Shown one piece after another: positions 3,293-29,310 of a stretch of DNA of 33,607 nt. The stretch is from Armatimonadota bacterium (GTDB lineage Bacteria; Armatimonadota; UBA5829; JAUSEB01), in assembly GCA_030650495.1 (NCBI GenBank), contig JAUSEB010000399.1:1-33607 (forward strand), written 5' to 3'. Position 1 is the first letter of the stretch. Each line of letters begins with the position of its first letter. The notes beneath the pieces were generated by a model. The model was not told where the DNA came from. It did no database searches and saw only the letters and a list, made by a program, of their open reading frames with translations. Made by a program: the position numbers and the translations under genes.

Positions 3293-3367
3293 AGTATCTA
3301 TCTCACACAACCAACGAAATAGTAGCTAGCCTGCATTATTCACGAATAGAGTAAAGTCACCGCAGAC

Positions 3368-3443
3368 CGTCATTCCGAACGAAGTGAGGAATCTGTTTTT
3401 TAGCTTCAGGAAAAGCAGATTTCTCGCTACTCTCGAAATGACG
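3368..3443. repeat. CGTCA...TGACG fold-back element, copy A
   Basis: CGTCATTCCGAACGAAGTGAGGAATCTGTTTTTT...AAAAGCAGATTTCTCGCTACTCTCGAAATGACG; both arms are versions of CGTCATTTCGAACGAAGTGAGAAATCTGCTTTT. Confidence 0.85.
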
Positions 3444-3461: not shown

Positions 3462-3485
3462 CACTAACCACTAATCACTAATCAC
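3462..3485. repeat. Heptamer tandem tract (CACTAAC/T)3 overlapping the ccmF stop codon
   Basis: CACTAAC CACTAAT CACTAAT CAC; the ccmF stop (tca on +, 3482-3484) lies within it. Confidence 0.9.
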
Positions 3486-5677
3486 AATATCTTCCTATTC
3501 TCTCTCACTCGCCGGAATATGGCGATGCTGCCGCCGAGTAAAGCGAGTATGGACCCCAGCCATAAAAGGCTGATGAGCTTTTTGATGCTTACTTCTATTA
3601 CAGCGGATGGGCTTGCGCCGGGATAGTTGACACTCAGTACGGCGCCAACTTGCATTTCTCCGCCTTCTCCATGTCCGCCCGACATATCGAAATGATCGAA
3701 TTTAAATGTATAATTTCCAACTATGCCTGACCGGCCTTTTTCAAGCTGAAGGGCTTGAGGCCGCTTATCCTTTTGTTGGACAAGTAGAATGGCAATTCTA
3801 CTTGTTTTGTCGACCTGAATGCCCATCAATCTGATGTCGGCGCCGCCATCAGGAGTCTTAGCGTCTATATATTGATTTCCCGATGGCGTTGGCTTCAGGA
3901 CGGGTGTAATTTGGAGTGCGCGCACTTCCGATGGCGCAATATAAAGGTCTTTCAAAAGCGAATGGTGAATGTGCGGTTTATGCATCATACCATCGTTAGT
4001 TGGGCGCATCTCAGGAAGAGCAAGAAAGCTCTTTCCATCCTTCTCCACTCCGATACGCATTGCCTGCGTCCCATTTGGAAACTTCTTTAACCCTTTATAA
4101 CTAAAATCATATCCCAGCTTGCTTACGCTGTCGCCATTCTCTGACAGAACGAGCCGGTGCGGCTGCTGCATGCTTGGTGAGAACGCCATGCCCATTAGCA
4201 TCAATGCTATACCGACGTGCGCCATGCTGCCGGCTATCATTTTCCAATCGCCGCGAGCGTATTTGCACATTTGCCGGAGGTTTACGGCCAGAGCCATAAT
4301 CGCAATCGCGGCGACCGCCGCTGAAACCGGCTTGTGAAGAATCAATTGCATCGCGATAAAGATAACCGCGGTTACAACGAGCGCTACCAGAAGGTTGATG
4401 CGGGCAGCTATAGATGTAACGCCGGAGGATGTGGATTTCTCGCGGCTCGCCCATGGAAGTATCGGCACAAGAGCCAGCGCAATCAGCAAAACAATAGCTA
4501 TTGGCGAGCTGACCATGGCGTAGTAATCCGGGCCAACGCTATCAGGTTTGCTCATAATGAGCTTTGTAAATATCGGACTCGATGTACCGACCAAAACCAG
4601 TAACGCCAACGCCGATAGGCTGATGATTGCGATAAAGAAAACGAACTCCTTGGAATCCAGGCGGCCATACCACGAGCGGCTTTCGATCTTTTTCGCGCGC
4701 CAAATCAGCAGGCCGGCGCAAAGAACGGTGAAGAAAACGAGGAAACCGATAAGGTAGGCATTTGTTCCTAGATCGCTGAATGAGTGAACGGAAAAATCGC
4801 CGAGGACTCCGCTTCGGGTGAGGAAGGTCGCATAGACAACCAGCAGGAACGATAAAAGCGCCAGGACCATATTCGTCCGCCGCATGCTGCCTCGGTATCT
4901 CTCCACCAGCATCCCATGCAGCAGAGCCGTGCCGGAAATCCAGGGCACGAGCGACGCGTTTTCCACGGGATCCCAACCCCAGTAGCCTCCCCATCCAAGG
5001 ACTTCATACGCCCAAAAGCTGCCGATAATGATGCCCGCGCCCAATGTCAGCCAGGCGAACAAAGCCCAGGGAAGACATCGGTTGCTCCAGTTTTGGTAGT
5101 CCCCCTTGATAAGCGCGGCTATTACGAACGCGGCGGGCGCGGCCATTGCGGCATAGCCGAGAAACACGAGCGGCGGATGTATGGCCATCCAGAAGTTCTG
5201 CAAAAGTGGATTTAGCCCCTGGCCGTCGGGAAACTGCATCAGCATCCCCTGCGGCGTCGCGGCAAATGGGCTTTTAACGATTAACAAGGTGAAGAAGAAA
5301 GCCTGAACGGTACACCAAAACGCCATAAGCCAAGGTTCATAATCCTTTGACTTCGCGGCCAGAAAAAGGCCGATAATCGCGCCGAATAGCGCCCATAGCA
5401 GAAATGATCCTTCCTGGCCGGCCCAAAACGCGGAAATCAGATAGTTAAGCTGCAAATCGGTCGAGCTGTATGACATGATGTAGTGAATGTCAAATCTGTG
5501 GTTCAGTATCATGACCATAAGATATGCGCTAGCGATGACAACTCCCGTGGTCATGGCATAGTAGGCCGCGCGCCCGATGGACACGTTTCGCTTATTTGCC
5601 GCGCCTGAGATATAGCCGATAATTGCAACTAGAGTAGTGGCCCAACAGAGCCAGATGAGCAGCGTTCCGAGAACCAT
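3482..5677 (-). CDS. ccmF: Cytochrome c-type biogenesis protein CcmF
   Basis: 731 aa; WWD-type motif GWGGYWGWDPVENASLVPW; many TM segments; adjacent to ccmE. Confidence 0.95.
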   Translation of the reverse strand: MVLGTLLIWLCWATTLVAIIGYISGAANKRNVSIGRAAYYAMTTGVVIASAYLMVMILNHRFDIHYIMSYSSTDLQLNYLISAFWAGQEGSFLLWALFGAIIGLFLAAKSKDYEPWLMAFWCTVQAFFFTLLIVKSPFAATPQGMLMQFPDGQGLNPLLQNFWMAIHPPLVFLGYAAMAAPAAFVIAALIKGDYQNWSNRCLPWALFAWLTLGAGIIIGSFWAYEVLGWGGYWGWDPVENASLVPWISGTALLHGMLVERYRGSMRRTNMVLALLSFLLVVYATFLTRSGVLGDFSVHSFSDLGTNAYLIGFLVFFTVLCAGLLIWRAKKIESRSWYGRLDSKEFVFFIAIISLSALALLVLVGTSSPIFTKLIMSKPDSVGPDYYAMVSSPIAIVLLIALALVPILPWASREKSTSSGVTSIAARINLLVALVVTAVIFIAMQLILHKPVSAAVAAIAIMALAVNLRQMCKYARGDWKMIAGSMAHVGIALMLMGMAFSPSMQQPHRLVLSENGDSVSKLGYDFSYKGLKKFPNGTQAMRIGVEKDGKSFLALPEMRPTNDGMMHKPHIHHSLLKDLYIAPSEVRALQITPVLKPTPSGNQYIDAKTPDGGADIRLMGIQVDKTSRIAILLVQQKDKRPQALQLEKGRSGIVGNYTFKFDHFDMSGGHGEGGEMQVGAVLSVNYPGASPSAVIEVSIKKLISLLWLGSILALLGGSIAIFRRVRENRKIL

Positions 5678-5682
5678 TTTGG

Positions 5683-6057
5683 TTATTTACTCCCTGAGAC
5701 CTCGCCCTGATATTTGGACGGGCATTTTACTATGAGCCGGTCGGCTCGAAAAGCTCCATTGTGATATGTTCCAACAGCCACAACGTGAGACGCCTGCTCA
5801 AAATTTCCCGGCTTTGAGCCTTTGTATGTAACTTGAAGCTCAGCGCCGTCTTCATCTTTAATAAAGAAGTTCAGCGCGCCGGACTTGTCGATAGTTATCC
5901 TGTCTTTCAGTAATGCGCCTTTGACTTGCACCTGCGAATCGGCGGTTTTGGCCTCGGCAATCGAAACATACGGCGTTATGGATTGAATAAAGCCTGCCGC
6001 CGCAAATGCGATGAACCCAATTATCAACAAGGCCCCGATGATATACGATTTCTTCAT
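5683..6057 (-). CDS. ccmE: Haem chaperone CcmE, CxxxY variant
   Basis: 124 aa, N-terminal TM plus OB-fold; C-terminus RADRLIVKCPSKYQGEVSGSK. Confidence 0.93.
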   Translation of the reverse strand: MKKSYIIGALLIIGFIAFAAAGFIQSITPYVSIAEAKTADSQVQVKGALLKDRITIDKSGALNFFIKDEDGAELQVTYKGSKPGNFEQASHVVAVGTYHNGAFRADRLIVKCPSKYQGEVSGSK

Positions 6058-6100
6058 ACAAATGTTTACCTATTTCATAATAGTTCAGACTTCGGCGCCC

Positions 6101-6184
6101 CGTCATTTCGAACGAAGTGAGAAATCTGCTTTTTCGAACTCACCGCAGGAAAAGCAGACCCCTCGACTTCGCTCGGGGTGACGG
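6101..6184. repeat. CGTCA...TGACG fold-back element, copy B, between ccmD and ccmE
   Basis: CGTCATTTCGAACGAAGTGAGAAATCTGCTTTTT...AAAAGCAGACCCCTCGACTTCGCTCGGGGTGACGG. Confidence 0.85.
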
Positions 6185-6210
6185 TGTACTCACCGAAAGT
6201 GAACTCTTAC

Positions 6211-6318
6211 CTATTTCCGCGTGAGGTTCTTTACCTGGCGGTCGAGTTTTACCAAAAAGATGAATATCCCTATCCAAACGATAAGCGGAGCTATCATAAT
6301 AGCCATCATAGGCGACAT
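6211..6318 (-). CDS. ccmD: CcmD-like small membrane protein
   Basis: Own translation: MSPMMAIMIAPLIVWIGIFIFLVKLDRQVKNLTRK (35 aa, TAG stop); one TM helix followed by a LDRQVKNL-type tail, between ccmC and ccmE. Absent from the ORF track, probably because of a length cutoff. Confidence 0.85.
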   Translation of the reverse strand: MSPMMAIMIAPLIVWIGIFIFLVKLDRQVKNLTRK

Positions 6319-6324
6319 ATTCGG

Positions 6325-6999
6325 TTATACTCCCTTCTTCTGATTGCGGTGAACGGCAATTGCCGAACACAAGCGGAACAACCATACATATAGTCCCAAA
6401 AAGCCAATCATAGCGGCGGATAAGACCATTCTGTATTGCGGCCCAAGACCGCCGCGCGTGGTAAGCGTGTCCGACGGATGCAGCGAAGACAGCATTCTGG
6501 GCAAGATGAAAATAAGAAATGGCACTGTTACGAACGCGATAATAGCATAAGCTGATGACAAGACGGCGCGCCGCTCATCTCCTTCGACCGCCGACCTGAG
6601 ACCAAAATAAGCCGCGTATATCATAAGCAGGATGGCCATGGTGGTCTCTCTGGGATCCCAGTTCCACGCCGTTCCCCATTGGATCTTGGCGAAAATCGCG
6701 CCGGTTAGAGTGGCTAAGATTGCGAACATAAGTCCTAACTCCGCGGACGCGACCGACTTTGCGTCATTCACCAAATCACGGCTTTTCAGGTATTTGACCG
6801 CGTATACGGTCGAAACCAGAAACGCGATAACGGCAACCATTGCGTTTGGCACGTGGAATATGATAATACGCGCGGCTTCGGGATATTGAAAACCCTTTGC
6901 GGGAGGCAGCCATAAAAACGCGGCTATTATGACGCCGCACATCCATAGACCGAGGGCAAATTGTAGAATCATTATTTTAATCTTCCCAGATGAACTCAA
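6325..6999 (-). CDS. ccmC: Haem exporter permease CcmC (TTG at 6999, or ATG at 6972)
   Basis: 224 aa; WGTAWNWDPRETTMAILLMIYAAYFGLRSAV motif. Confidence 0.95.
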   Translation of the reverse strand: MSSSGKIKIMILQFALGLWMCGVIIAAFLWLPPAKGFQYPEAARIIIFHVPNAMVAVIAFLVSTVYAVKYLKSRDLVNDAKSVASAELGLMFAILATLTGAIFAKIQWGTAWNWDPRETTMAILLMIYAAYFGLRSAVEGDERRAVLSSAYAIIAFVTVPFLIFILPRMLSSLHPSDTLTTRGGLGPQYRMVLSAAMIGFLGLYVWLFRLCSAIAVHRNQKKGV

Positions 7000-7663
7000 A
7001 CAGCATTATTGACGCGGTTATCATGACGCCCGCGTAGGCGATCAATACTCTTAGATAAGGAAAACCCTTCGACAGCGTTCCTCCGTCCAGCGCCAGGCCG
7101 GAAGCGGGTATCGCCGTGACCAGCAGCGGCGCCAGTATCGGAAATGATAGAACAGCAAACAATGCGCCTTTGGCATTTGCTTTCGATACAATCGCCGCGA
7201 CCACGGTCGAAGCCGCTGATAAGCCCACACTGCCTAAGAACAAGACGAGCAGTAATAAAGGCCAGTTCCCTACGTTTACATTCATCATTACGACAAAAAG
7301 CGGTATTACGATTATCTCCAGCGCGAGCAGGAGCGTCACGTTGAACGCCAGTTTTCCCAGAAATACGGCAGTTGGTTCGGCAGAAAGTCGAAGCGCGGTT
7401 GCGGTTCGACCTTCCTCTTCACGGACGAAAGTACGCGAGAGTCCCGACATAGCGGAAAAGAAAAGGATAACCCAGAGCAAAGCCGCCAGCAATTTCTTAT
7501 CTTGAACACCGAACCCACCTACGGAGATGCTCACCGCAACAAGGGTAGTTACCGCGAATAAGGCGACCGCGTTAAGAGCATAGCGGGTGCGAAATTCCGA
7601 TAACAGGTCTTTTTTATAGACCGCCGCGGCTTTAGACACCCAGCTCGATGACTTGGTCACCAT
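6977..7663 (-). CDS. ccmB: Haem exporter permease CcmB
   Basis: 228 aa; VYKKDLLSEFRTRYALNAVALFAVTTL...; overlaps ccmA and ccmC. Confidence 0.92.
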   Translation of the reverse strand: MVTKSSSWVSKAAAVYKKDLLSEFRTRYALNAVALFAVTTLVAVSISVGGFGVQDKKLLAALLWVILFFSAMSGLSRTFVREEEGRTATALRLSAEPTAVFLGKLAFNVTLLLALEIIVIPLFVVMMNVNVGNWPLLLLVLFLGSVGLSAASTVVAAIVSKANAKGALFAVLSFPILAPLLVTAIPASGLALDGGTLSKGFPYLRVLIAYAGVMITASIMLFEFIWED

Positions 7664-8249
7664 AACCCTCTTCTTTCTTGTCGTTTGTGGCCAGGACCAG
7701 CAGCCCCTCCTTCTTGTGCTCTGTGATTATTTCGTCTACGAGTTTCACGCCCTCCGCGTCCAAATTCGCCGTAGGCTCATCCAACAGCAAAATCGGCGGA
7801 TTGTGCAGCAGCGCGAATGCGTATTTCACCCTCTGCTTCATACCTGATGAATATGACGACAGCGGCTCATCCTCACGCCCGGCCAGCCCAACACGCGCTA
7901 TCAACTCGCGCAAGTCCTTCACACCGCGATTCATGCCCCTGACTTTAGTGAAAAATTGAAGGTTCTCTAAAGCGGTCAGTTCTTCGTAAAGCGCCAGATC
8001 TGGAGCTACTAAACCAACAAGATTTCGACGCTCGGCCTGGCTTGCTTCTTTGCCGTCTATCTCTATAATCGCGGAGCCTATCGTTGGCCGTATCAAACCG
8101 GCGATAATGCGCAGTAATGTTGATTTGCCGGAGCCGTTTCTGCCTGTGATCGCAAGAGATGAACCAAGAGGCGCCTCAGCGTTGATCTCACTGAAGACTT
8201 TCCGCTGCCCGTATTCCTTACCTATATTGCACAGCTTGAGGGAAATCAA
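7632..8249 (-). CDS. ccmA: Haem exporter ATPase CcmA (TTG start)
   Basis: ABC ATPase: GRNGSGKSTLLRIIAGLIRPT, LSSYSSGMKQRVKYA, LLLDEPTANLD. Confidence 0.92.
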   Translation of the reverse strand: MISLKLCNIGKEYGQRKVFSEINAEAPLGSSLAITGRNGSGKSTLLRIIAGLIRPTIGSAIIEIDGKEASQAERRNLVGLVAPDLALYEELTALENLQFFTKVRGMNRGVKDLRELIARVGLAGREDEPLSSYSSGMKQRVKYAFALLHNPPILLLDEPTANLDAEGVKLVDEIITEHKKEGLLVLATNDKKEEGYGDQVIELGV

Positions 8250-8467
8250 ACATTACCTCTGCCTGGTGGCGGCTTATTTTGAATTGTGAATATATTTACA
8301 ATCTCTGTAAATGCTATGCCAATTATCCCATTCGCTCCAAGCAGTGTCAAGGCAAACAGCTTTCCATCTGTGTTTATCCGCGCACATCCGCGTTTATCTG
8401 CGTTCTTATATAAGCTTGCGAAATGGAGGATTTCTGGTGTACAGTTTTTTGTGAGGTAATTGCGCGT

Positions 8468-9550
8468 ATGCCTTCCAATAGAACACAAGAGCAAATATCG
8501 GAGATAATGCGGCGCGTGAAGTCGCGTGACACAACGCCGGAGATCGCCTTTCGGAAGGCTTTGTGGGCGAGTGGTGTCAGGTATAGGCTTCACGACGCCA
8601 GGCTGCCGGGAAAGCCGGACATTGTTATCCCAAAATCACGCCTGCTTGTATTCATCGACGGTGACTTCTGGCACGGCAATCAGTATCGCAAACGCGGTCA
8701 TGCCACACTGGAAGCGCAATTTGTCGCAAGTCCAAAAGCTGAATACTGGGTTCCTAAGATAGACGGAAATATGCGCCGCGACAGGAAAAACACGGCGCAG
8801 GCGTTGGCTGAGGGATGGAATATCCTGCGATTTTGGGAGAGCGATATAAAATCGGATTTGCCGGCGTGTATAGAGACAACCCTCAAAGCGATAAAGGGGG
8901 ATTACGATTACCCAATAGCAAGCCGCTTGCCGCAACAAACTGCCATCGTTTTTACTGAATTATCTGCGCTACGCCCCATTTTGGAAGAATGCGGCTGGAG
9001 CGTAACGCTTGTTGAGAATAGCGCCGCGGCTTCCGAAGTTACACTCGCCGCCGCCGTATTTGAACAGGACGATCTTAAGGCGAAAGGCTGCGCTTGGGAT
9101 TTTATGGACTTGCTATCACAGATGGGGCCAAAGCTCCCACCCATTGCGCTTATGGAATGTCCGCCAGAGTGGATTAGAAATAAATATGCTGATGTTTTCG
9201 CGGAATTCCTATATAAACTTAGCCGGTTGGGATATTGCATAGACGCTTTCACAATGATGGCGAAAGAGAATTATGATACTTTATACGTTTTAGCAGTGGT
9301 GGAGGATGTCGTTACTACATCGATCAGTGAAGAATTGAAATTGTCGGAAACGCGGCCAAGAGAAGTTTTCGATTTCATATCTCGGCGGCTGGATATCAAA
9401 TGGTTCTTGGGCGCAGTTCCGGTGATTGATGAAAATTCTCATCGGAATGCCGTGGACTGGATACTATGCAAATATCTGAACCCGGCGATCAACCAGTGGA
9501 TACATGGGCGGGTGTTGAGCCCGGTTAATTCCTCAGTTTGCCTTGAATAA
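8468..9550 (+). CDS. Vsr-like very-short-patch-repair endonuclease fused to a degenerate C5-cytosine-methyltransferase-like domain (track start 8423; ATG at 8468 more likely)
   Basis: N-terminus: MPSNRTQEQISEIMRRVKSRDTTPEIAFRKALWASGVRYRLHDARLPGKPDIVIPKSRLLVFIDGDFWHGN...DGNMRRDRKNTAQALAEGWNILRFWESDI (Vsr). C-terminus: AIVFTELSALRPILEECGWSVTLVENS... LMECPPEWI...FLYKLSRLGYCIDAFTMMAKENYDTLYVLAVV...RPREVFDFISRRLDIKWFLGAVPV, resembling C5-MTase motifs I/II, VI and VIII-region. Confidence 0.85.
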   Translation: MPSNRTQEQISEIMRRVKSRDTTPEIAFRKALWASGVRYRLHDARLPGKPDIVIPKSRLLVFIDGDFWHGNQYRKRGHATLEAQFVASPKAEYWVPKIDGNMRRDRKNTAQALAEGWNILRFWESDIKSDLPACIETTLKAIKGDYDYPIASRLPQQTAIVFTELSALRPILEECGWSVTLVENSAAASEVTLAAAVFEQDDLKAKGCAWDFMDLLSQMGPKLPPIALMECPPEWIRNKYADVFAEFLYKLSRLGYCIDAFTMMAKENYDTLYVLAVVEDVVTTSISEELKLSETRPREVFDFISRRLDIKWFLGAVPVIDENSHRNAVDWILCKYLNPAINQWIHGRVLSPVNSSVCLE

Positions 9551-10039: not shown

Positions 10040-11029
10040 CTATGCCCGACGCCGTCTCATGCCCAAAAGTCCTACTAACCCACCAGCCAATGCGATAATT
10101 GATGACGGCTCAGGAACAACTTCGGAAACACGGAACCCGATGTGGCGGAACTCGGACAACGTGTCGTAGTGGTAGCGGTACGATGATGCTTGGAGAAAGT
10201 CGTCGGGGAGGTAAAACGAACCGCCACGCAGACCACGATCAGCGTAATTCGAGCCTTCGGATCTAATGGCTTCGTTCCACTCATAGATGTTGCCGCCCTG
10301 GTCGAATGTGCCGTAGGGACTGTCGGAGTTCTGGAACTCGCCGACTACCGTGGTGTACTTGCCGGAATCGATGGGATATGGATTACCATAATAGTTGGCG
10401 TTGTTGCCGGAGGCATCGGCCATGTCCCGACCTGGGGTCGTGTTGCTGCTCGTGGGATAGTCCCAGTAACCGGCGCCACCAGCTTTGTTGGGGTCGTAAT
10501 AAGCAGCCTTATACCACTCGTCCTCGCTGGTCACTGCCCACTTCCAATTCGCGTTGCGCTGTATGGTGTTGCCATGGCCATCATTCCAATTGTAGCCGTT
10601 CAGAGTGTATGCGCCGGCCTCGGTGGAGCCGTTGCCCTGGCCGTTACCGAGCCAATTGGCAAAACGGCACGCATCCCAATAGCTTACGTAGTTCACCGGC
10701 CTGTTCGCGTAATCCGACGCTATGCTGTAAGTGTAGCTGCCAGAGCCGCCGGTGCGCTGGATTTGGCAGCCAGCCGTGTTGCTTGCCATAAACGGGTTGT
10801 ACAACCCGTATTTATCCGTCTTTGCCTTGGCGTTCAGAAACTCGGTGTACTGTCCCGCAGTTACTTCATACTTGCCGATGTTGTAGGTATAGGCCACCGA
10901 GCCGTAGCCGGTGGTGTCTGCCGTATTTCCCGCGTTACCCACCTCGACTGTCTCCATCACTACCGCATGAGCAGCAACGCACAAGCACAACAGCGCGATC
11001 ACTGCCATTGCGCCAAAAACCTTCTTCAT
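10040..11029 (-). CDS. FGE-sulfatase/SUMF1-domain secreted protein with PEP-CTERM sorting signal (start moved to MKKVFGAMAV at 11029)
   Basis: Signal peptide MKKVFGAMAVIALLCLCVAAHA; SUMF1-like VNYVSYWDACRFANWLG...TFDQGGNIYEWNE...RGLRGGSF; C-terminal VPEPSSIIALAGGLVGLLGMRRRRA; AAAGGAGAAAAG RBS. Confidence 0.92.
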   Translation of the reverse strand: MKKVFGAMAVIALLCLCVAAHAVVMETVEVGNAGNTADTTGYGSVAYTYNIGKYEVTAGQYTEFLNAKAKTDKYGLYNPFMASNTAGCQIQRTGGSGSYTYSIASDYANRPVNYVSYWDACRFANWLGNGQGNGSTEAGAYTLNGYNWNDGHGNTIQRNANWKWAVTSEDEWYKAAYYDPNKAGGAGYWDYPTSSNTTPGRDMADASGNNANYYGNPYPIDSGKYTTVVGEFQNSDSPYGTFDQGGNIYEWNEAIRSEGSNYADRGLRGGSFYLPDDFLQASSYRYHYDTLSEFRHIGFRVSEVVPEPSSIIALAGGLVGLLGMRRRRA

Positions 11030-11075
11030 CTTTTCTCCTTTTATGGCGTTCTTCTGAGCTTTGAACGGTAGGTTC

Positions 11076-11099
11076 GTTTCGGTATTGAAATGCCGAAAC
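11076..11099. promoter_or_regulatory. Leader hairpin GTTTCGGTATTGAAATGCCGAAAC upstream of the SUMF1 PEP-CTERM gene
   Basis: Near-perfect inverted repeat 47 bp before the ATG. Confidence 0.55.
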
Positions 11100-11174
11100 A
11101 CCGTAAACTCCATCCAGCAATATGCCTGCTCGGTGTCACGTATCAATCAATATTATTATCTGTCTGCGCCACTT

Positions 11175-12548: not shown

Positions 12549-15500
12549 GTGGCGGTTCAGCTCATATCGGGACCTACCGGCAGCGGCAAGACCGGCGCGG
12601 CTATCGCCGAACTCCTGCGGCTCGACCCTTCATCGTGGAACTCCACAGCCCGTTATATCGTCACCACGCGGCAGGCGGCTAGGCAGGTCACTGAGCGCAT
12701 CATTCAGCAGGCAAATCTGTCCGGCATATTGGGCAATGTCGTCTGCACATTCTATGATCTAGCGCAGGAGTTCATTGCGCGCTCCGGTTTCGCCGCAAGC
12801 CTGATTTCCGACCTCCAGAAATCCTTGATGATCGAGGAAATGCTTCCCGGCGCCAAGCTGGACTATTTCGGCAGAGTGGCGGAACTGCCGGGTTTCACAG
12901 GAGCGCTGGGGCAGGTCATCGGGGAATTGAAGCTTTCGATGGTCAGGCCGGAACAGCTTGACGAGGCGCTGCGAGTACAGGAGCAAGAGTTAGGCTATTC
13001 GTCGCGCCGGAAGATAAGGGAATTGGCGGAGATGTACCGCCGGTACCAGGAAGACATCCTGCTGCGTCATGACCTGCACGATAGAGAAGGTGTGATGTGG
13101 CGTGCAATGGAAATCCTTAAGGAACGCGATTACCTCGCCGGATTTCGCCTCTTTGTTTTTGATGGATTTGACTATTTCAACGGCGTCCAAAAGGAGTTCC
13201 TCTCGCTAATATCGGGACGCGTCCCCGAAGTAATCGTAACGCTGAACTATGAGCCGAGCAGGCCGGAAGTATCGCACATGGTCGAGGTCTCTCGGAGTTT
13301 TGTTCTTGGATTGGGCCAATCATCCGAAAACCTCAAATCTCGCAAACTACAATGCCGGACATCACTGGCACATCTTGGAACTACCGTCTTCAGCAGCGAT
13401 GTTGAGCCTGTTGCCTGCGACGACACTGTAACGATCATCGAAGGCGGCAATCCCGGAATCGAAATCGAGCTGGTTGCTGAGGAAATCCGCAAACTTGTCA
13501 TAGAGCAAGGCTATCGATTTGGCGAGATCGCTATAGTCGCCCGTGATATTGATAGTTACCGCGCGCGTATACAAAGGGTTTTCAGGGCTTATCACTTGCC
13601 GGTTGAGGATTCAGACCGGCCTCTTGCAGGAGCGGCTGTTGCCCGCCTTTTGCTTTCTTGCGTTCGCGCTGTAACTGACGGCTGGCGCAGAAGTGACGTT
13701 ATACAGATACTGAAGTCGGAACTCCTGACAAGTGATTTGCAGCCGGCTTGCAGGGCTGATGTCAATTCAACGCAACTGGGCATTCTGGAAGGCCGTGAGA
13801 ATTGGCTTCGCAGTTGGGGAGACGAAGATAAGACACACGATTTCCGCGTGGATATTCTGAAGACGGTCGTGGAATTCCAGTCGGAGGCCGAGAGAAGCGC
13901 GGCAATAGAAGGACTGGTTGATGCAACTAAAAAGCTGCTGAACGTATTTAACTGGAGAGAAAACACCGAATACAAAGCGCAGGACGCCGCCGCATATAAA
14001 ACGATTTTGCAAATTCTCGATGACCTTGCGCGAAGCCACAAGCTCATCAGTAAGGACACCGGAACGCGGCAGTTTTTCAGTCTTCTTGAGCGGTCGATTT
14101 TTGAAAGCTCTTACACGGTACCCGTATTAAGTAACGAAGTTGTCTGTTTACTGCCGGCTGATAAAGTTTACGGTGAAAAATTCAAAGCTGTTTTCATAAT
14201 CGGCCTGCTTGAGAAGGTCTTTCCGAGACAAATCCGGGAAGAATCATTCCTCCGTGATCGCGAGCGTGAGGCGCTGAATAAAAGCCTTCACGGCGCTTTA
14301 CAGATACAACTGCCTCAGCAAGAAACCGAGCGTTATTACTTCTACAACACCGTCTCTAGCGCCCAGGACAAGTTGTATCTTTGCTACCCGCTGGCGGATG
14401 AGACAGCAAAGGACAGCCTGCCATCGTTTTACATTGGGGAGGTCCGAAAGCTCTTTGCGGACGAATTGCAGACTATACGCAGAGATGTATCCGATATTAT
14501 TCCTTCTGTTGAATCTTGCCGGGACGTGGACGGTCTGAAAAGGAGTGTTGTTTACGCGTTTTCACACCTGCCGGAAGATAAGACCGTGGCCGCCAAGTCC
14601 GCTTACAACAGCTTGCCGGCAAAAGATCTGGCAAGTCTGGCAAGGGTTTTCAGTGATTTTGAAGAAAGACCGGCGCTTATCGCCGATGCAACGCTGCTTA
14701 GGCGCATGGCCGACACTGACCGTGTTTACAGATGCACGGAGCTTGAAAGCTACGCCGCCTGTCCGTTCATGCACTTCTGCCATTACACTCTGGGGCTTGA
14801 ACCGATACGCGACGAGATAGGCGGCCTCGACTGGGGAGGAATTCTACACGAAACGCTATATCGCGTGTTCACTACGCTTCGCGGCGAGCTTGGAGACGAT
14901 TTTTCCGTAATTGAGTTGGACGGGGCGGCGGTGATTTTGCAGGCCAAGAACGTCTTCGCGGAGAAGTTCGATAATTGCTCCCGGCTGGTTAACCTTCCAT
15001 CTCACGAGAAGGAAATGCAGAAGCAGAGCCTGTGGGCGTACATCGAACGTTATATATCGTCCGAAGTGAAGAACGGCTGGCCGGACTTCTCACCAACTCA
15101 TTTCGAGTTGGAGTTCGGAAACGCGGCCAAGCCCGGCAGGCAGCGCGATCCCAAGTCTACTGAAAAGCCACTTATTCTGACGGATTCCGATGGAACTCGC
15201 GTGGAGATTTGCGGGAAGATGGACCGGGTGGATTTGTCGCCTCTGGGAGCGTTAGTCATCGACTATAAGCTGGGGAGTTCTCCCGGCATTTTGAAATTCG
15301 AGAAAGGCCTGGTATTGCAAGCGATGATCTACGCTCTGGCGTTGAAGAAGGTCTTCGGAATCGAGCCTCTGGCCGCCGAGTACCGGCCTCTCAGGGAATG
15401 GAAGCCGGACGGTTTCTATGTCGATACAACCGGAATCAACAAGAGAAATAGAGTCAAGACACGGGAAGAGTTCGACGAGATGCTGAGCGCTTGCGAATCT

Positions 15501-15674
15501 CTTATTCTGGATATTGCAAAAGATATTCGCGCCGGACGGATTTCAGTGGAGCCAAAGGACTGCAAATCATACTGTTCGTATAAAGGCATATGCAGGATAG
15601 ATGACTACCAGAATCTTCTCCTCCAGGCCAGGCGGGCCGCTGAAGGGGAAGAAATCGAGGAGGCGGACGAATGA
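12549..15674 (+). CDS. addB: ATP-dependent helicase/nuclease subunit B (AddB/RexB type; GTG start)
   Basis: GPTGSGKT near the N-terminus; CPFMHFCHYTLGLEP; PD-(D/E)XK-type LVIDYKLGSS; distal CKSYCSYKGICRI cysteines; followed directly by addA. Confidence 0.9.
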   Translation: MAVQLISGPTGSGKTGAAIAELLRLDPSSWNSTARYIVTTRQAARQVTERIIQQANLSGILGNVVCTFYDLAQEFIARSGFAASLISDLQKSLMIEEMLPGAKLDYFGRVAELPGFTGALGQVIGELKLSMVRPEQLDEALRVQEQELGYSSRRKIRELAEMYRRYQEDILLRHDLHDREGVMWRAMEILKERDYLAGFRLFVFDGFDYFNGVQKEFLSLISGRVPEVIVTLNYEPSRPEVSHMVEVSRSFVLGLGQSSENLKSRKLQCRTSLAHLGTTVFSSDVEPVACDDTVTIIEGGNPGIEIELVAEEIRKLVIEQGYRFGEIAIVARDIDSYRARIQRVFRAYHLPVEDSDRPLAGAAVARLLLSCVRAVTDGWRRSDVIQILKSELLTSDLQPACRADVNSTQLGILEGRENWLRSWGDEDKTHDFRVDILKTVVEFQSEAERSAAIEGLVDATKKLLNVFNWRENTEYKAQDAAAYKTILQILDDLARSHKLISKDTGTRQFFSLLERSIFESSYTVPVLSNEVVCLLPADKVYGEKFKAVFIIGLLEKVFPRQIREESFLRDREREALNKSLHGALQIQLPQQETERYYFYNTVSSAQDKLYLCYPLADETAKDSLPSFYIGEVRKLFADELQTIRRDVSDIIPSVESCRDVDGLKRSVVYAFSHLPEDKTVAAKSAYNSLPAKDLASLARVFSDFEERPALIADATLLRRMADTDRVYRCTELESYAACPFMHFCHYTLGLEPIRDEIGGLDWGGILHETLYRVFTTLRGELGDDFSVIELDGAAVILQAKNVFAEKFDNCSRLVNLPSHEKEMQKQSLWAYIERYISSEVKNGWPDFSPTHFELEFGNAAKPGRQRDPKSTEKPLILTDSDGTRVEICGKMDRVDLSPLGALVIDYKLGSSPGILKFEKGLVLQAMIYALALKKVFGIEPLAAEYRPLREWKPDGFYVDTTGINKRNRVKTREEFDEMLSACESLILDIAKDIRAGRISVEPKDCKSYCSYKGICRIDDYQNLLLQARRAAEGEEIEEADE

Positions 15675-18600
15675 CGGAGCTTCGCCTCACGGACGCTCAG
15701 AGATCGGCTATCGATACGCTCGACAGCGATGTGTCAGTTTCCGCCGGAGCAGGATCGGGAAAGACGGAGGTCCTTGTTCAGCGGTTCTGCCGCATCGTCG
15801 AGTCCGGCATGGCTGAAGTTGATGAAATATTGACCGTTACCTTTACCGAAAAGGCCGCCAAGGAAATGAAGCAGCGGAAAGTTCGGGAGTTCTAGCGACT
15901 CTATTTGCAAACAGGCGAGACGCGCTTCGAGCAGGCAAGGCGGAAGGTCGAGTCGGCCTACATCGGCACCATCCACTCCTTTGCGACACGAGTTCTAAAG
16001 GAGAATGCTTTCGATGCGGGAATCGATCCCAAGTTCGATGTCCTGGAACAGGTCGAGGCCGCGACGCTTAGAGATAAGATACTCGAAGAGCTTATTGCCG
16101 CGAACTATGCCGATCAGACATCGGAGTATCTGGCGCTGCTCTTTGCTTTTGGGAAGAGGACCGTAAAATCTTCCATCGGGAAGGCTCACGCGCATTTGTG
16201 CAATCTTGGCAAACGCGCAAATGAAATACCTCCGATTAGCGCTCAAGATGATAATCCGCGTGATTTGGCGGATGCTTGCTTTCAATTGCTGGATGAGTTG
16301 TTGGTCTTATCAGGACAAGTCCGCATGACGGAGAAGCTCTTGGAACAACTGGAAGACTTTTCGCCAAAATACGATTCGCTGAAAGAGTCAGCGTTTCAGG
16401 CTTGCGCCAAAATCCAAGACTTGACTCCACAGGAGTATGTGTCGAGCTTCGACTGCGAAGAATATGAGGCTCTTGGGCTGATGGAGTATTTCGTCAAAGG
16501 GAGTGTTGGAACCGCCGAAGTTAGGGAGAACTATATCAAACCGGCCAGATATGCCGCTAAGCTGTTCCGCCAATCGCTTCTTGCGCCTATCGCCGCTTAC
16601 TATGTCCAATGCCTTCTCAAGATCACTGACGATTTTCAGCGTGACTACGCCGAGGCCAAATGGCGCGCCGGTATGATGGACTATGACGATCTGCTGCTGA
16701 TAACAAAGAAATTGCTTACGATCGGAGACGGGGATCCAACGGAAATTGCCGAATCATACAAACGCAAATTCAGGTTCGTCGTTATGGATGAGTTTCAAGA
16801 TACTAACGCTCTGCAGAAAAGCATCGTCCAGTCCGTCTGCCGCCCCGGCAGGTTCTTCACGGTCGGCGACGTCAAACAGTCGATATTCAGCTTCATCCAC
16901 AGTGATGTCTCGGTGTTTATCGACCATCACGACTCCATCGAGCAAAATGGGAACGGCAAGACGCTGGCGTTCCAGGAGAACTTCCGCAGCCGACCGGATA
17001 TATTGGAATTCGTAAACTGGTTCTTCGATCAGATTTGGGCCGAAGACGGGGATTTTGACTTCGAGAAGCTCATCGCCGGGGGCAAGTTTCACGATAAGAC
17101 CGATTCCGATGTCGAAATACTATTCGTCCCGCAAATGGGCGGCGCTAAAACCTCAAGGTTGTTAGAAGCAAGGGCTATTGCAAAACGCATCCTCGAACTG
17201 CTTGGACGAACGGGACGGCCGCCACTTATGGTAACCAAGAAGAAGGACGATGACAGTCCCCCACGCCCGCTGCGACCGGGAGATATTTTGATTCTCTTCC
17301 GCGCGGTGTCGGATATACCGATCTACGAGCGCGCGCTTCACGAGGCCGGTATAGAGTACTATGTGGTCAGCGGGCGAGGATTCTATTCCACTCACGAAGC
17401 GCAGGACATACTCAACCTGCTCAGGGTTATCGAGAATCCGCTGAACGATGTCCCGATGGCCGCTATGCTAAGATCGCCAATGGTGGGAATTTCCGATGAT
17501 ACACTTTGGTGGTTGACCCGCCGCGCCGCCTCTCCCGCTGAATCGCCGGAAATCGAGATGGACGAGACGGACATTCCTCAACGAAATCAGGCCATCGGCA
17601 AGCTCTACTCAGCGCTTCAGAATCTCGATTCAATTTCCGGCATAGGTCGAGACGATATCGAACGACTTGTCAGGTTCAAGGGCACACTTAATGAATTGCA
17701 CTCCTTCAGATCGGAAAGCAAGATCACAACGCTTCTCGATACGGCGCTTGCGAGGACGGAATATGATCTGAAGGCGCTCGCGTCGCATAACGGCAAGCGG
17801 AAATACGCCAATATTAGAAAACTGCTAGACGTGGCGCAGGACTTCGAGGCCAACAGCATCTTCTCACTTGGCGACTTTATTCGTTACATGGAAAATCTTG
17901 CGATACTGGCGGACCGTGAAGCTGAGGCCCCAACCGAAACCGAGGAAAGCCCGGTTGTGCGCCTTATGACCGTGCACAAAGCCAAGGGGCTGCAGGCGCC
18001 TGTGGTGTTCGTCACGGATTGCGCGAGAAAGCTCAATGTCGGTGATAGCTCGGCCTTCGTTTTCAGCAAAGAGCGCGGCGTTTCATGCAAGATACCGAAT
18101 CCCGCCACCGGCGCCGAATTGAAGCCAAGAGCTTATGAGACCATATCAGAGCAGATAAAAACCGCTGACATCGAGGAAGAAAAGCGCCTTTTGTACGTTG
18201 CATTGACCAGGGCGGAGGAGCTTCTGATCTTGAGCGGCTCCAGCAAATTCGACGCGGAGAAGCGCGACGGCAAGGCGTTTAATGAAATCGGAAGCTGGTC
18301 GGGATGGATAGAGAAAGCCCTGCAACTGGATGAGAACCGCGGTCAAACGCTGGAAGCAGGCGGCGTAAATGTCCGATTGCGCGCGGACTTGCCAGAGCTG
18401 CAGCCTGCCAACGCCGAGCGAAAGACCGTTTTGGAGACCCATCGCAAGACTCTGCTCGCAGGAGAAAAGCTGCCGGATGTAGATTTGGAAATTGCTCAGA
18501 CCATTGTGGCTCGATGTTCCACGCTATCCCCAAGCGCCTGTACCGGCCCGATGGAGCTTACCGTAAGTAAGGCGTTGGATTTCCTTACCTGCCCGTTGAG

Positions 18601-19261
18601 ATACCAGCGGCGTTATATCCTGGGAATTCCCGAACCTGAACCGGAATGGGAAGATTACCCTCCTGACGAAGAAGACGGGACGTCGGCTGCAAACGTCGGC
18701 TCAGCCGCGCATCAAATATTGAGATCGGTCGATTTTACCAAGGACATCTCGCCGCAGTTGGAAGAATACGCGCGGTATCAGGACGAGGCCGTTCGTGACA
18801 CAGCGCTGGAGTCGTGCCGGCGGCTTCTTAATTCACCCTGGCTTTCGCGTATTCAGAGTGGATCAAGTTGGCTGCAGGAGGTCCCATTCCAGGCGCATTT
18901 GGACCAGTTGCGCTTGCTCGGAAGGATTGATTTGCTTTTCAAAGACCAATCGGGGTGGATCATCATTGACTATAAGACTGGTTCAGGAGAGGGCGGCGAG
19001 CGTTATAACTTGCAGGTTGGAATATATGCGCTTGCCATAGAGCGATGCCTTGGCGTCGCCCCGATGAAAGTGGCTTTGGTCAACCTGGGTAAAGGGGAAG
19101 ACGTTGAGATAAATGTAACCGCCGAGTTACTCGACCAAACCCGGCGGTTGCTTGAAGCGATCCCGTTGGCGGTAAGATCAGGCGCCTTCCCAGCCCGCAA
19201 ATCGTCCGAGTGTGATTACTGCGGATATGGGAAAGGTTGTCAGTTGACGGTTGACGGTTGA
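15671..19261 (+). pseudogene. addA: ATP-dependent helicase/nuclease subunit A (AddA) interrupted by one in-frame TAG at 15893-15895 (track pieces 15671..15895 and 15905..19261 are in the same frame)
   Basis: VSAGAGSGKTEVLVQRF ... TVTFTEKAAKEMKQRKVREF[*]RLYLQTGETRFEQARRKVESAYIGTIHSFATRVLKENAF ... VVMDEFQDTNALQKSIV ... VRLMTVHKAKGLQAPVVFV ... WIIIDYKTGSG ... CDYCGYGKGC. Confidence 0.88.
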
Positions 19262-27618: not shown

Positions 27619-27647
27619 ATGTAGGAGTTCACTCTCGTTTCGTAAAC

Positions 27648-27733
27648 CGTCACCCCGAGCGGAGTCGAGGGGTCTGCTTTTCCTTGTAATCAATTCTCAA
27701 AAAGCAGATTTCTCACTTCGTTCGAAATGACGG
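27648..27733. repeat. CGTCA...TGACG fold-back element, copy D
   Basis: CGTCACCCCGAGCGGAGTCGAGGGGTCTGCTTTT...AAAAAGCAGATTTCTCACTTCGTTCGAAATGACGG. Confidence 0.85.
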
Positions 27734-27763
27734 TATGCCGAAGTCTGGCCTATGTTAGCGCTC

Positions 27764-28438
27764 TTACTCCCCTACCATCCTTCGAGCTTTGATAATACGC
27801 GGCTTCCTGGACACCATTTTCATTATGCCGGGATCCAAGGCGGCTGCAAGAGACAGCGTGTCCTTCTCAGCTATCGACTGGCTCTCCGTCACGGAAACAA
27901 GAACCCTGATCAGCGCGGAAGGCTGGACTTCTCTCGAAAGCAGGGCGCCTTTCCATGTCTCGAACCGTTGGGCTGTCAGTGTGTCTTTTGCCCCATTCAA
28001 CCCGGCATACCAATAGGCGCAAACTGTAAGCTGCCCATCCTTCTCTTTCAGCAGAAGCATTTTTATTGAATGAGGCTTGCCGGTGTGCGGCCTCAACACT
28101 GTCGTCCGTTCTTTGACACGGACCCAGCCGTGGCTTTCAAAGCAATACTCCGGTTTGTGAATATCGGCTATATCAAGGCCGTAGACAATGGCCAGATTGG
28201 CCCAGCGCGCTTCCGGATTAATATAATCACGGATCAAAACACTTGAATTGGGGAGTAATTCAGCGGATTCTCCGGGATCTACATTGTATCCCGTCCACCC
28301 TTCGATCTCGCGTGGAATGCCGTCGAATTTCTCCACAACCCGTCCCAGGAGCGTTGTGGGTCTTACGAAGGAAATCAGACCGGCAAACGCCAGGGCAAGA
28401 AGCATAACTATGCAGGCATTTCTTTGTACTTGGCGCAT
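27764..28438 (-). CDS. EpsI-like exosortase-associated protein (DUF3485)
   Basis: IPREIEGWTGYNVD...ELLPNSSVLIRDYINPE...KPEYCFESHGWVRVKE...YWYAGLNGAKDTLTAQRFETW; overlaps the exosortase. Confidence 0.85.
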   Translation of the reverse strand: MRQVQRNACIVMLLALAFAGLISFVRPTTLLGRVVEKFDGIPREIEGWTGYNVDPGESAELLPNSSVLIRDYINPEARWANLAIVYGLDIADIHKPEYCFESHGWVRVKERTTVLRPHTGKPHSIKMLLLKEKDGQLTVCAYWYAGLNGAKDTLTAQRFETWKGALLSREVQPSALIRVLVSVTESQSIAEKDTLSLAAALDPGIMKMVSRKPRIIKARRMVGE

Positions 28439-29310
28439 CCAACCAACCTCGCAAAAAGAAGCAAAAGCGCAGCCGTGACGAGCAGCAGCGCGTATCCGGT
28501 GAAATCATGGGCAATTTTTAGAGCGGATATTCCCCAGTAACGGCCCACGATTGAGATCAGCATAATCCTAACGGAGTTGACCGCGATACTCAGAGGCAGC
28601 GCAAAAGCAACGAGAATAACTTTTCCGTACAGCGTTCCTTTGCGTATATAAGCGAAGAATGTCGCAATGGCAAGCATAGACACGACCAGGCGGAAGCCGC
28701 TGCAGGCGCCGCCGACATCTACGATCAATCCAGGAAGAGCAATATGTGAACCCTGGCTGACAGCTTCCGCGCCAACAAGATTCAGTCCGGCGGTCGCAAG
28801 GTTGATGGACAGCATCTGCGCCTTGAAACTCACAACTGAAAGTACAGATTCCGGCGGAGGCGCGGCAAACCACAATAAGAATAAAGGAAAGCTAAACGAT
28901 TTGGCGACTTCAAAGCCTGCTATTGCGACAATCGCCCCAAATAGGAAAATAGGTAAAGTGAATCCCGTAACGCTCGCGCTGGCTCCCATCCAGGCGAACC
29001 AACCCAATAAGATGGCAAATAATAGTATTGGATAGCCCAACCGGGAAGGTTGCAACAGCAAACGCCCTATGCTTTTTCTGTTGAACCAGATTATGAATAT
29101 GGAGGCCAAAGGCACGAAGGGGCCATGCGAGTAGAAGCTCTCTTTCTCGAACCACCTGCTCCACCAGAAAGCCAGCGCGGGCCAATAGGCTATTCCCGCC
29201 GCCGCCAGTGTTGTTACACACATCGCAAGCGCCGGTCGGGACCGCGCAACATCGCGAACATATACGGATGGAGCTTCAGTTACATCTTCTTTTGTCAATT
29301 TCAAAACCAT
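28408..29310 (-). CDS. Exosortase (PEP-CTERM sorting transpeptidase)
   Basis: Polytopic; catalytic-type GGACSGFRLVVSMLAI, NSVRIMLISIVG, IAHDFTGYALLL (Cys/Arg/His). Confidence 0.92.
   Translation of the reverse strand: MVLKLTKEDVTEAPSVYVRDVARSRPALAMCVTTLAAAGIAYWPALAFWWSRWFEKESFYSHGPFVPLASIFIIWFNRKSIGRLLLQPSRLGYPILLFAILLGWFAWMGASASVTGFTLPIFLFGAIVAIAGFEVAKSFSFPLFLLWFAAPPPESVLSVVSFKAQMLSINLATAGLNLVGAEAVSQGSHIALPGLIVDVGGACSGFRLVVSMLAIATFFAYIRKGTLYGKVILVAFALPLSIAVNSVRIMLISIVGRYWGISALKIAHDFTGYALLLVTAALLLLFARLVGCAKYKEMPA

Follow-up and report, generated by a model that had tools for sequence, protein, structure and literature searches.

The fusion gene and its nuclease domain

The window, by which we mean the whole stretch of 33,607 nucleotides that was analysed, contains a gene that joins a Vsr-type endonuclease to a C5-methyltransferase (C5-MTase) half stripped of its catalytic motifs. 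We place the start of this gene at the ATG at 8468; a second in-frame ATG occurs upstream, at 8423, and the ortholog described below begins at the position corresponding to 8468. The neighbours of the gene are the cytochrome-c maturation (ccm) genes, a gene for an FGE-domain protein, a signal peptidase-like gene and AddB/AddA. An initial annotation, made from the sequence, had raised the question of nearby defence genes; none was found among these window neighbours. An Rfam scan of the window gave no match.

Several other features of the window were recorded. The AddA-like helicase-nuclease gene (15671-19261, forward strand), which adjoins AddB (12549-15674), has an in-frame stop at about 15893-15895, which separates the Walker A region from the remainder of the gene and may reflect either a genuine disruption or a fault of the assembly. 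An FGE-sulfatase-domain protein with a PEP-CTERM-like tail (10040-11146, reverse strand) and an exosortase (EpsH) with a DUF3485 protein (27764-29310, reverse strand) constitute an exosortase sorting system. An intergenic repeat, CCGTCATTTCGAACGAAGTGAGAAATCTGCTTTTT, and its reverse complement are interspersed between unrelated genes at 3367-3443, 6080-6210 and 27621-27753.

Table 1. Features of the fusion gene and its surroundings (positions in the window).
Feature	Positions	Strand	Basis
Cytochrome-c maturation (ccm) operon, divergent neighbour of the fusion gene	3482..8249	-	ORFs and synteny; gene names assigned from sequence
Possible ribosome-binding site GTGAGG upstream of ATG 8468	8451..8456	+	Putative, sequence as read
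Whole gene, Vsr endonuclease and disarmed C5-MTase	8468..9550	+	360 aa plus stop; ORF, alignment, ortholog L056 in matching synteny
Vsr nuclease domain, residues 1-142	8468..8893	+	TIGR00632, PF03852; 1cw0 by sequence and fold
E25, Vsr catalytic position	8540..8542	+	Alignment to 1cw0
D51, Vsr catalytic position	8618..8620	+	Alignment to 1cw0
D64-G-D-F-W-H69, D64 replacing H64, catalytic H69	8657..8674	+	Alignment to 1cw0
D105, equivalent of E. coli D97	8780..8782	+	Alignment to 1cw0
Pseudo-MTase core, residues 157-280	8936..9307	+	C5-MTase Rossmann fold order without the motif III strand; models, Foldseek, profile
Motif I (SAM-binding) place, VFTELSAL vs FFAGIGL	8948..8971	+	Alignment
Junction of motif II-III deletion (~29 columns)	9014..9025	+	Alignment
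Motif IV place, LAAAVFEQDDLK vs LATASFPCNDLS, catalytic Cys lost	9044..9079	+	Alignment
Motif VI place, LMECP vs LLENV	9149..9163	+	Alignment
Motif VIII place, KENYDTL vs PQSRQRLF	9263..9283	+	Alignment
Retained post-VIII segment SETRPREVFDFISRRLDIKWFLGAVP, present in both dead proteins	9344..9421	+	Alignment
Junction of TRD and motif IX deletion (~130 columns)	9422..9448	+	Alignment
Retained motif X helix and C-terminal tail AVDWILCKYLNPAINQWIHGRVL	9449..9517	+	Alignment, profile, model

The nuclease half is readily recognised. TIGR00632 scores 116.4 bits over residues 5-126 (cut-off 97.85), the Pfam Vsr family PF03852 scores 93.1 bits (cut-off 27), and E. coli Vsr (1cw0) aligns with the window protein with E=7.5e-17. 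The nucleolytic active site of Vsr is formed by the positions E25, D51, H64, H69 and D97 of the E. coli enzyme (PMC12907096), and all five are filled in the window protein, by E25, D51, D64, H69 and D105. An aspartate at position 64 is reported for the functional V.NgoAXIII and for V.Nme18VIP (PMC12907096). Since the catalytic positions are filled and D64 is known from a functional Vsr, the nuclease half looks intact, as far as the alignment can tell. Residues C66, H71, C73 and C117 of E. coli Vsr, which we take to be its structural zinc ligands, are not kept as a set, C66 being replaced by D and C117 by S in the alignment to 1cw0. The corresponding stretches, GDFWHG and WES, are also read in the intact Vsr-MTase fusions described below, which argues that the absence of the zinc ligands, which members of the D64-type subfamily do not need to have, is a trait of that subfamily and not damage.

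Descent and losses of the methyltransferase half

General family searches did not recognise the C-terminal half: Pfam and NCBIfam gave no match to residues 151-360 alone, and a phmmer search of this half against the PDB gave chance matches only (30S protein S15, E 0.13). In a whole-genome tblastn search, an intact standalone C5-MTase matched residues 205-324 with 31% identity (E=9e-13). A profile built from the MTase part of 20 intact Vsr-C5-MTase fusions found the dead domains of both the window protein and its ortholog, with E-values, computed for a database size of one million (Z=1e6), of 1.7e-16 and 4.2e-20. The MTase models of PADLOC matched the ortholog at E=1.2e-7 and the window protein at E=0.004.

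The AlphaFold2 model of the window protein, computed with 22 sequences, reached a pLDDT of 85 and a pTM of 0.84, and a Foldseek search with it returned Vsr first, followed by M.HhaI (E=1.4e-5), DNMT2, M.MpeI and DNMT1. To guard against a fold imposed by the intact relatives, a second prediction, of the C-terminal half, used the two dead sequences and no others. The pLDDT of this model was lower (52), while the order of strands and helices was unchanged and the best Foldseek matches were again M.MpeI and M.HhaI (E=1e-4), which speaks against a bias from intact homologues as the source of the MTase fold. Both models thus give the C-terminus the Rossmann MTase fold on which the initial annotation had staked its reading. 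Chance resemblance to a C5-MTase is ruled out by the tblastn, profile, PADLOC and structure searches. Residues 150-360 are a true C5-MTase relic by descent, and the description of the protein as a Vsr fused to a non-catalytic C5-MTase-like domain holds in the light of the profiles, the 20 intact relatives and the alignment.

The motif losses were read from an alignment of the dead proteins to the intact fusions. Motif IV had been described as missing together with about 30 residues. The PC pair is indeed lost, SFPCND having become VFEQDD, but the strand LAAAV in front of it is kept, and the deletion removes about 11 residues of the loop behind it. Nor does the protein end before a full target recognition domain (TRD), as had been thought: since the motif X helix is present at the C-terminus, the TRD was excised from inside and the protein is not truncated. 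The ortholog has lost motifs I, IV and VI as well, its motif VIII is altered, and the TRD and motif IX (~130 columns) are deleted. We defined as conserved the columns of the MTase half common to at least 19 of the 20 intact proteins (n=133); both dead proteins have a gap at 59 of these and both keep 28, the kept columns falling mainly in the strands and helices of the core, in the post-VIII segment and in the C-terminal helix. Without motifs I, IV (PC), VI (ENV) and VIII (QxRxR), the TRD and motif IX, the MTase half, judged by its aligned sequence, cannot be catalytic.

These losses bear on a role first suggested for the dead MTase, that of a DNA- or base-reading domain which places the nuclease on specific DNA. 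C5-MTases bind DNA, and their fold is retained in our models. It is the TRD of a C5-MTase, however, that reads the sequence, and the catalytic loop that holds the flipped base; these DNA-contacting parts, together with motif IX, are deleted in both genera. What is more, E. coli Vsr recognises its site without a second domain. The absence of the TRD and the catalytic loop disfavours a reading role, which we consider highly improbable.

Intact relatives, inactivation and selection

A scan of 84,980 genomes recovered 20 intact Vsr-C5-MTase fusions of one architecture (L057-L076) and one further dead fusion (L056). The intact fusions come from Thermodesulfobacteriota, Acidobacteriota, Nitrospirota, Chloroflexota, Bacillota, Planctomycetota, Poribacteria, Myxococcota and Armatimonadota; an example of this widespread form lies at 4986-7539 of L064. 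All 20 align end to end, in agreement with the suggestion that the window gene originated from a Vsr-MTase fusion. In viral scans the fusion was absent, two contigs having Vsr only. In the tree of Vsr domains the two dead proteins are sisters (support 98) and the nearest rows beyond the pair are intact fusions; a single clade for all fusions was not rejected (p-AU 0.56), with the deep forks unresolved. A 3064-base contig from Verrucomicrobiia (L099) encodes a Vsr with a 97-residue C-terminal tail; its Vsr domain groups with the fused ones (support 98), and the tail does not resemble an MTase. The protein may be a frameshifted or truncated fusion.

At nine intact-fusion loci the next gene encodes DUF4928 (PF16280), which PADLOC rates as a Type II restriction enzyme. 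A DUF4928-similar protein was recognised by eye at L069 and L070 and was not found at L058, L060 and L076. On a Burkholderia plasmid the same three parts form an unfused operon in the order MTase, DUF4928, Vsr. The presence of DUF4928 next to intact fusions and in this operon identifies the parent as a Type II restriction-modification system. DUF4928 is absent from the window genome (G000) and from that of the ortholog (G001), whereas G037, an Armatimonadota genome with an intact fusion, has it; the dead fusion thus no longer belongs to that restriction system. No convincing remnant of a TRD or of DUF4928 was found beside the window gene or the ortholog. A TRD-like match on the contig of the ortholog (L023, 1950-2072; E=0.002, 43 aa) was rejected as chance, being on the opposite strand and arginine/glycine-rich.

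Descent from a restriction-modification system, and the listing of Vsr by PADLOC, would also suit a defence nuclease in which the disarmed enzyme cleaves foreign DNA, such as phage DNA with modifications or mismatches, instead of serving host repair. Against this, the restriction subunit is absent, no defence genes are adjacent and the gene has been inherited vertically at a housekeeping locus, and we find such a role improbable.

The ortholog (L056, equivalent to L002/L023; JAUSGG010000228.1) belongs to Armatimonadota isolate E14_metabat.bin.108, of another genus in the same family as the window genome. It is syntenic with the window gene, the ccm operon adjoining the dead fusion in both genomes. 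Among 291 Armatimonadota genomes there is no dead fusion beyond these two, and one genome (G037) has an intact fusion; in the sister family f3 the ccm genes are present and the fusion is absent. The deletions shared by the two dead proteins point to a single inactivation, in an ancestor that preceded the split of the two genera. The dead form is seen in n=2 genomes, each assembled from a metagenome (completeness of G000 95.5%, contamination 5.8%), and its identical architecture in two independent assemblies rules out misassembly.

The window protein and its ortholog are 73% identical in the Vsr half and 39% in the dead half. The neighbouring ccm genes of the two genomes are 61-77% identical, a range comparable to the value for the Vsr half. 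Divergence of the dead half at the three codon positions is 0.51, 0.38 and 0.71, and omega=1 is rejected in both halves (2dlnL 141 for Vsr, 56 for the dead half). As synonymous sites are saturated, the omega values themselves were discarded and the rejection of omega=1 alone counts. Of 190 pairs of intact fusions, 182 show stronger conservation in the MTase half than in the Vsr half, and the dead pair shows the reverse. This reversal, taken with the rejection of omega=1, indicates that constraint on the dead half is relaxed and not gone: it evolves faster than the Vsr half, yet not neutrally. The view of the protein as a relic of a fusion is therefore right as to the faster evolution of the MTase part and wrong if neutrality is meant, and the possibility of a decayed singleton does not apply, since a second genus has the dead form at the syntenic locus under purifying selection.

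The same data speak to the gene being a pseudogene in decay, a functionless relic of the fusion. All catalytic motifs are gone from the MTase half and it evolves at a higher rate than the Vsr half, as decay would have it. The frame, however, has stayed open in two genera since the shared ancestral inactivation, neither half evolves with omega=1, the Vsr active site is intact, and the Vsr half is as similar between the genomes as the ccm genes are. We give decay very little credence; the fusion has more the look of a restriction-modification enzyme that became a stand-alone nuclease.

Possible role and comparison with known systems

The initial annotation had found no MTase encoded alongside the nuclease. 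For the window this is correct, but the genome does contain two other C5-MTases, outside the window. Both genomes contain an orphan HhaI-like C5-MTase with intact motifs (G000 C242:6731-7600, L025; G001 C168:2518-3420, L028); the two orphans are 60% identical and share a neighbour gene that is 71.5% identical, so that synteny is conserved. On the basis of its presence in both genomes, this enzyme is the best candidate for a partner. MutL is also encoded in both. The window genome has no other Vsr gene. G001 has two further Vsr genes beside other MTases, and a repair role of the dead fusion could be redundant there. Caulobacter VsrA depends on the unlinked orphan MTase ScmA, and for Vsr enzymes of the D64 type activity is reported on T:G mismatches within degenerate motifs that several MTases methylate (PMC12907096).

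Our preferred reading, to which we assign a probability of roughly 0.6, is that a Vsr was domesticated from a disarmed Type II system and acts as a stand-alone T:G nuclease, with the MTase remnant as its scaffold. The ancestor of one Armatimonadota family would have acquired, next to its ccm operon, a Type II system consisting of a Vsr-C5-MTase and DUF4928. The DUF4928 restriction gene would then have been lost and the MTase half disarmed once, through loss of motifs I, II-III, IV, VI and VIII, the TRD and motif IX, with the Vsr active site retained. The stand-alone Vsr would nick 5' of the T in T:G mismatches, starting short-patch repair. The lesions repaired would be deaminated 5-methylcytosines produced by other, unlinked C5-MTases, among which the orphan HhaI-like enzyme is the best candidate. 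The pseudo-MTase core would persist in a scaffolding role, as a folded support of the Vsr half, and we propose that the reason for its retention is that the Vsr half evolved in fusion with it.

Alternatively, the disarmed MTase may be a purposeful pseudoenzyme that binds the orphan C5-MTase or MutL and so brings Vsr to methylated sites, a bacterial analogue of DNMT3L in its pairing with DNMT3A, by which repair would follow methylation. This would account for the purifying selection on the dead domain and for the fact that both genera retain the core fold, the post-VIII segment and motif X, and it has a candidate partner in the intact, syntenic orphan C5-MTase common to both genomes. On the other hand, the dead half is the faster-evolving one, and selection for folding alone accounts for the data. 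By this analogy a partner-binding role is possible, though we judge it unlikely.

If the domesticated, stand-alone nuclease is the correct reading, the two genera would exemplify, at one syntenic locus, the disarming of a selfish restriction-modification system and the domestication of its repair nuclease. Should the dead half have a function, it would be a bacterial pseudo-DNA-methyltransferase. In open-access full texts we found no description of a bacterial pseudo-DNA-methyltransferase or of a nuclease in fusion with a dead bacterial C5-MTase, and none of Vsr-C5-MTase fusions, with or without DUF4928, a domain named in one paper only of this literature. Vsr and C5-MTases are known families; the disarmed fusion is apparently new, in that we found no open-access paper on it. 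The analysis also brings to attention the widespread architecture of a C5-MTase with N-terminal Vsr and DUF4928, and opens to testing the idea that Vsr enzymes of the D64 type act in trans for orphan MTases.

Compared with E. coli Vsr (V.EcoKDcm; 1cw0, 1vsr), the window protein has the same nuclease fold and the E25, D51, H69 and D97 positions, and differs in having D for H64, in not keeping the presumed zinc ligands, in its 210-residue C-terminal extension and in having no adjacent dcm partner. It shares D at position 64 with Caulobacter VsrA (of the VsrA/ScmA pair), V.NgoAXIII and V.Nme18VIP; relaxed sequence context is reported for the two Neisseria enzymes, and VsrA resembles the window case in being unlinked to its orphan C5-MTase; PMC12907096, the source for these enzymes, describes no fused pseudo-MTase.

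M.HhaI (PDB 1hmy, 2i9k and others) has the core fold seen in the C-terminal half in both models; the window protein, in contrast, is missing the SAM motif, the catalytic Cys, the TRD and the motif III strand. In DNMT3L, too, selection maintains a C5-MTase domain that lacks catalytic activity, but DNMT3L is a eukaryotic regulator of an active MTase and has no nuclease; the likeness is one of analogy, and we claim no relationship beyond the shared fold. The intact fusions, such as that of G037 (JADLDR010000143.1, L068), have FAGIGL, ANDID, SFPCNDLS, ENV, PQSRQRLF, the TRD, motif IX and usually DUF4928, all of which the window protein has lost. What it has in common with them is the domain order over the full length, the D64-type active site, the linker, the post-VIII segment and the motif X helix.
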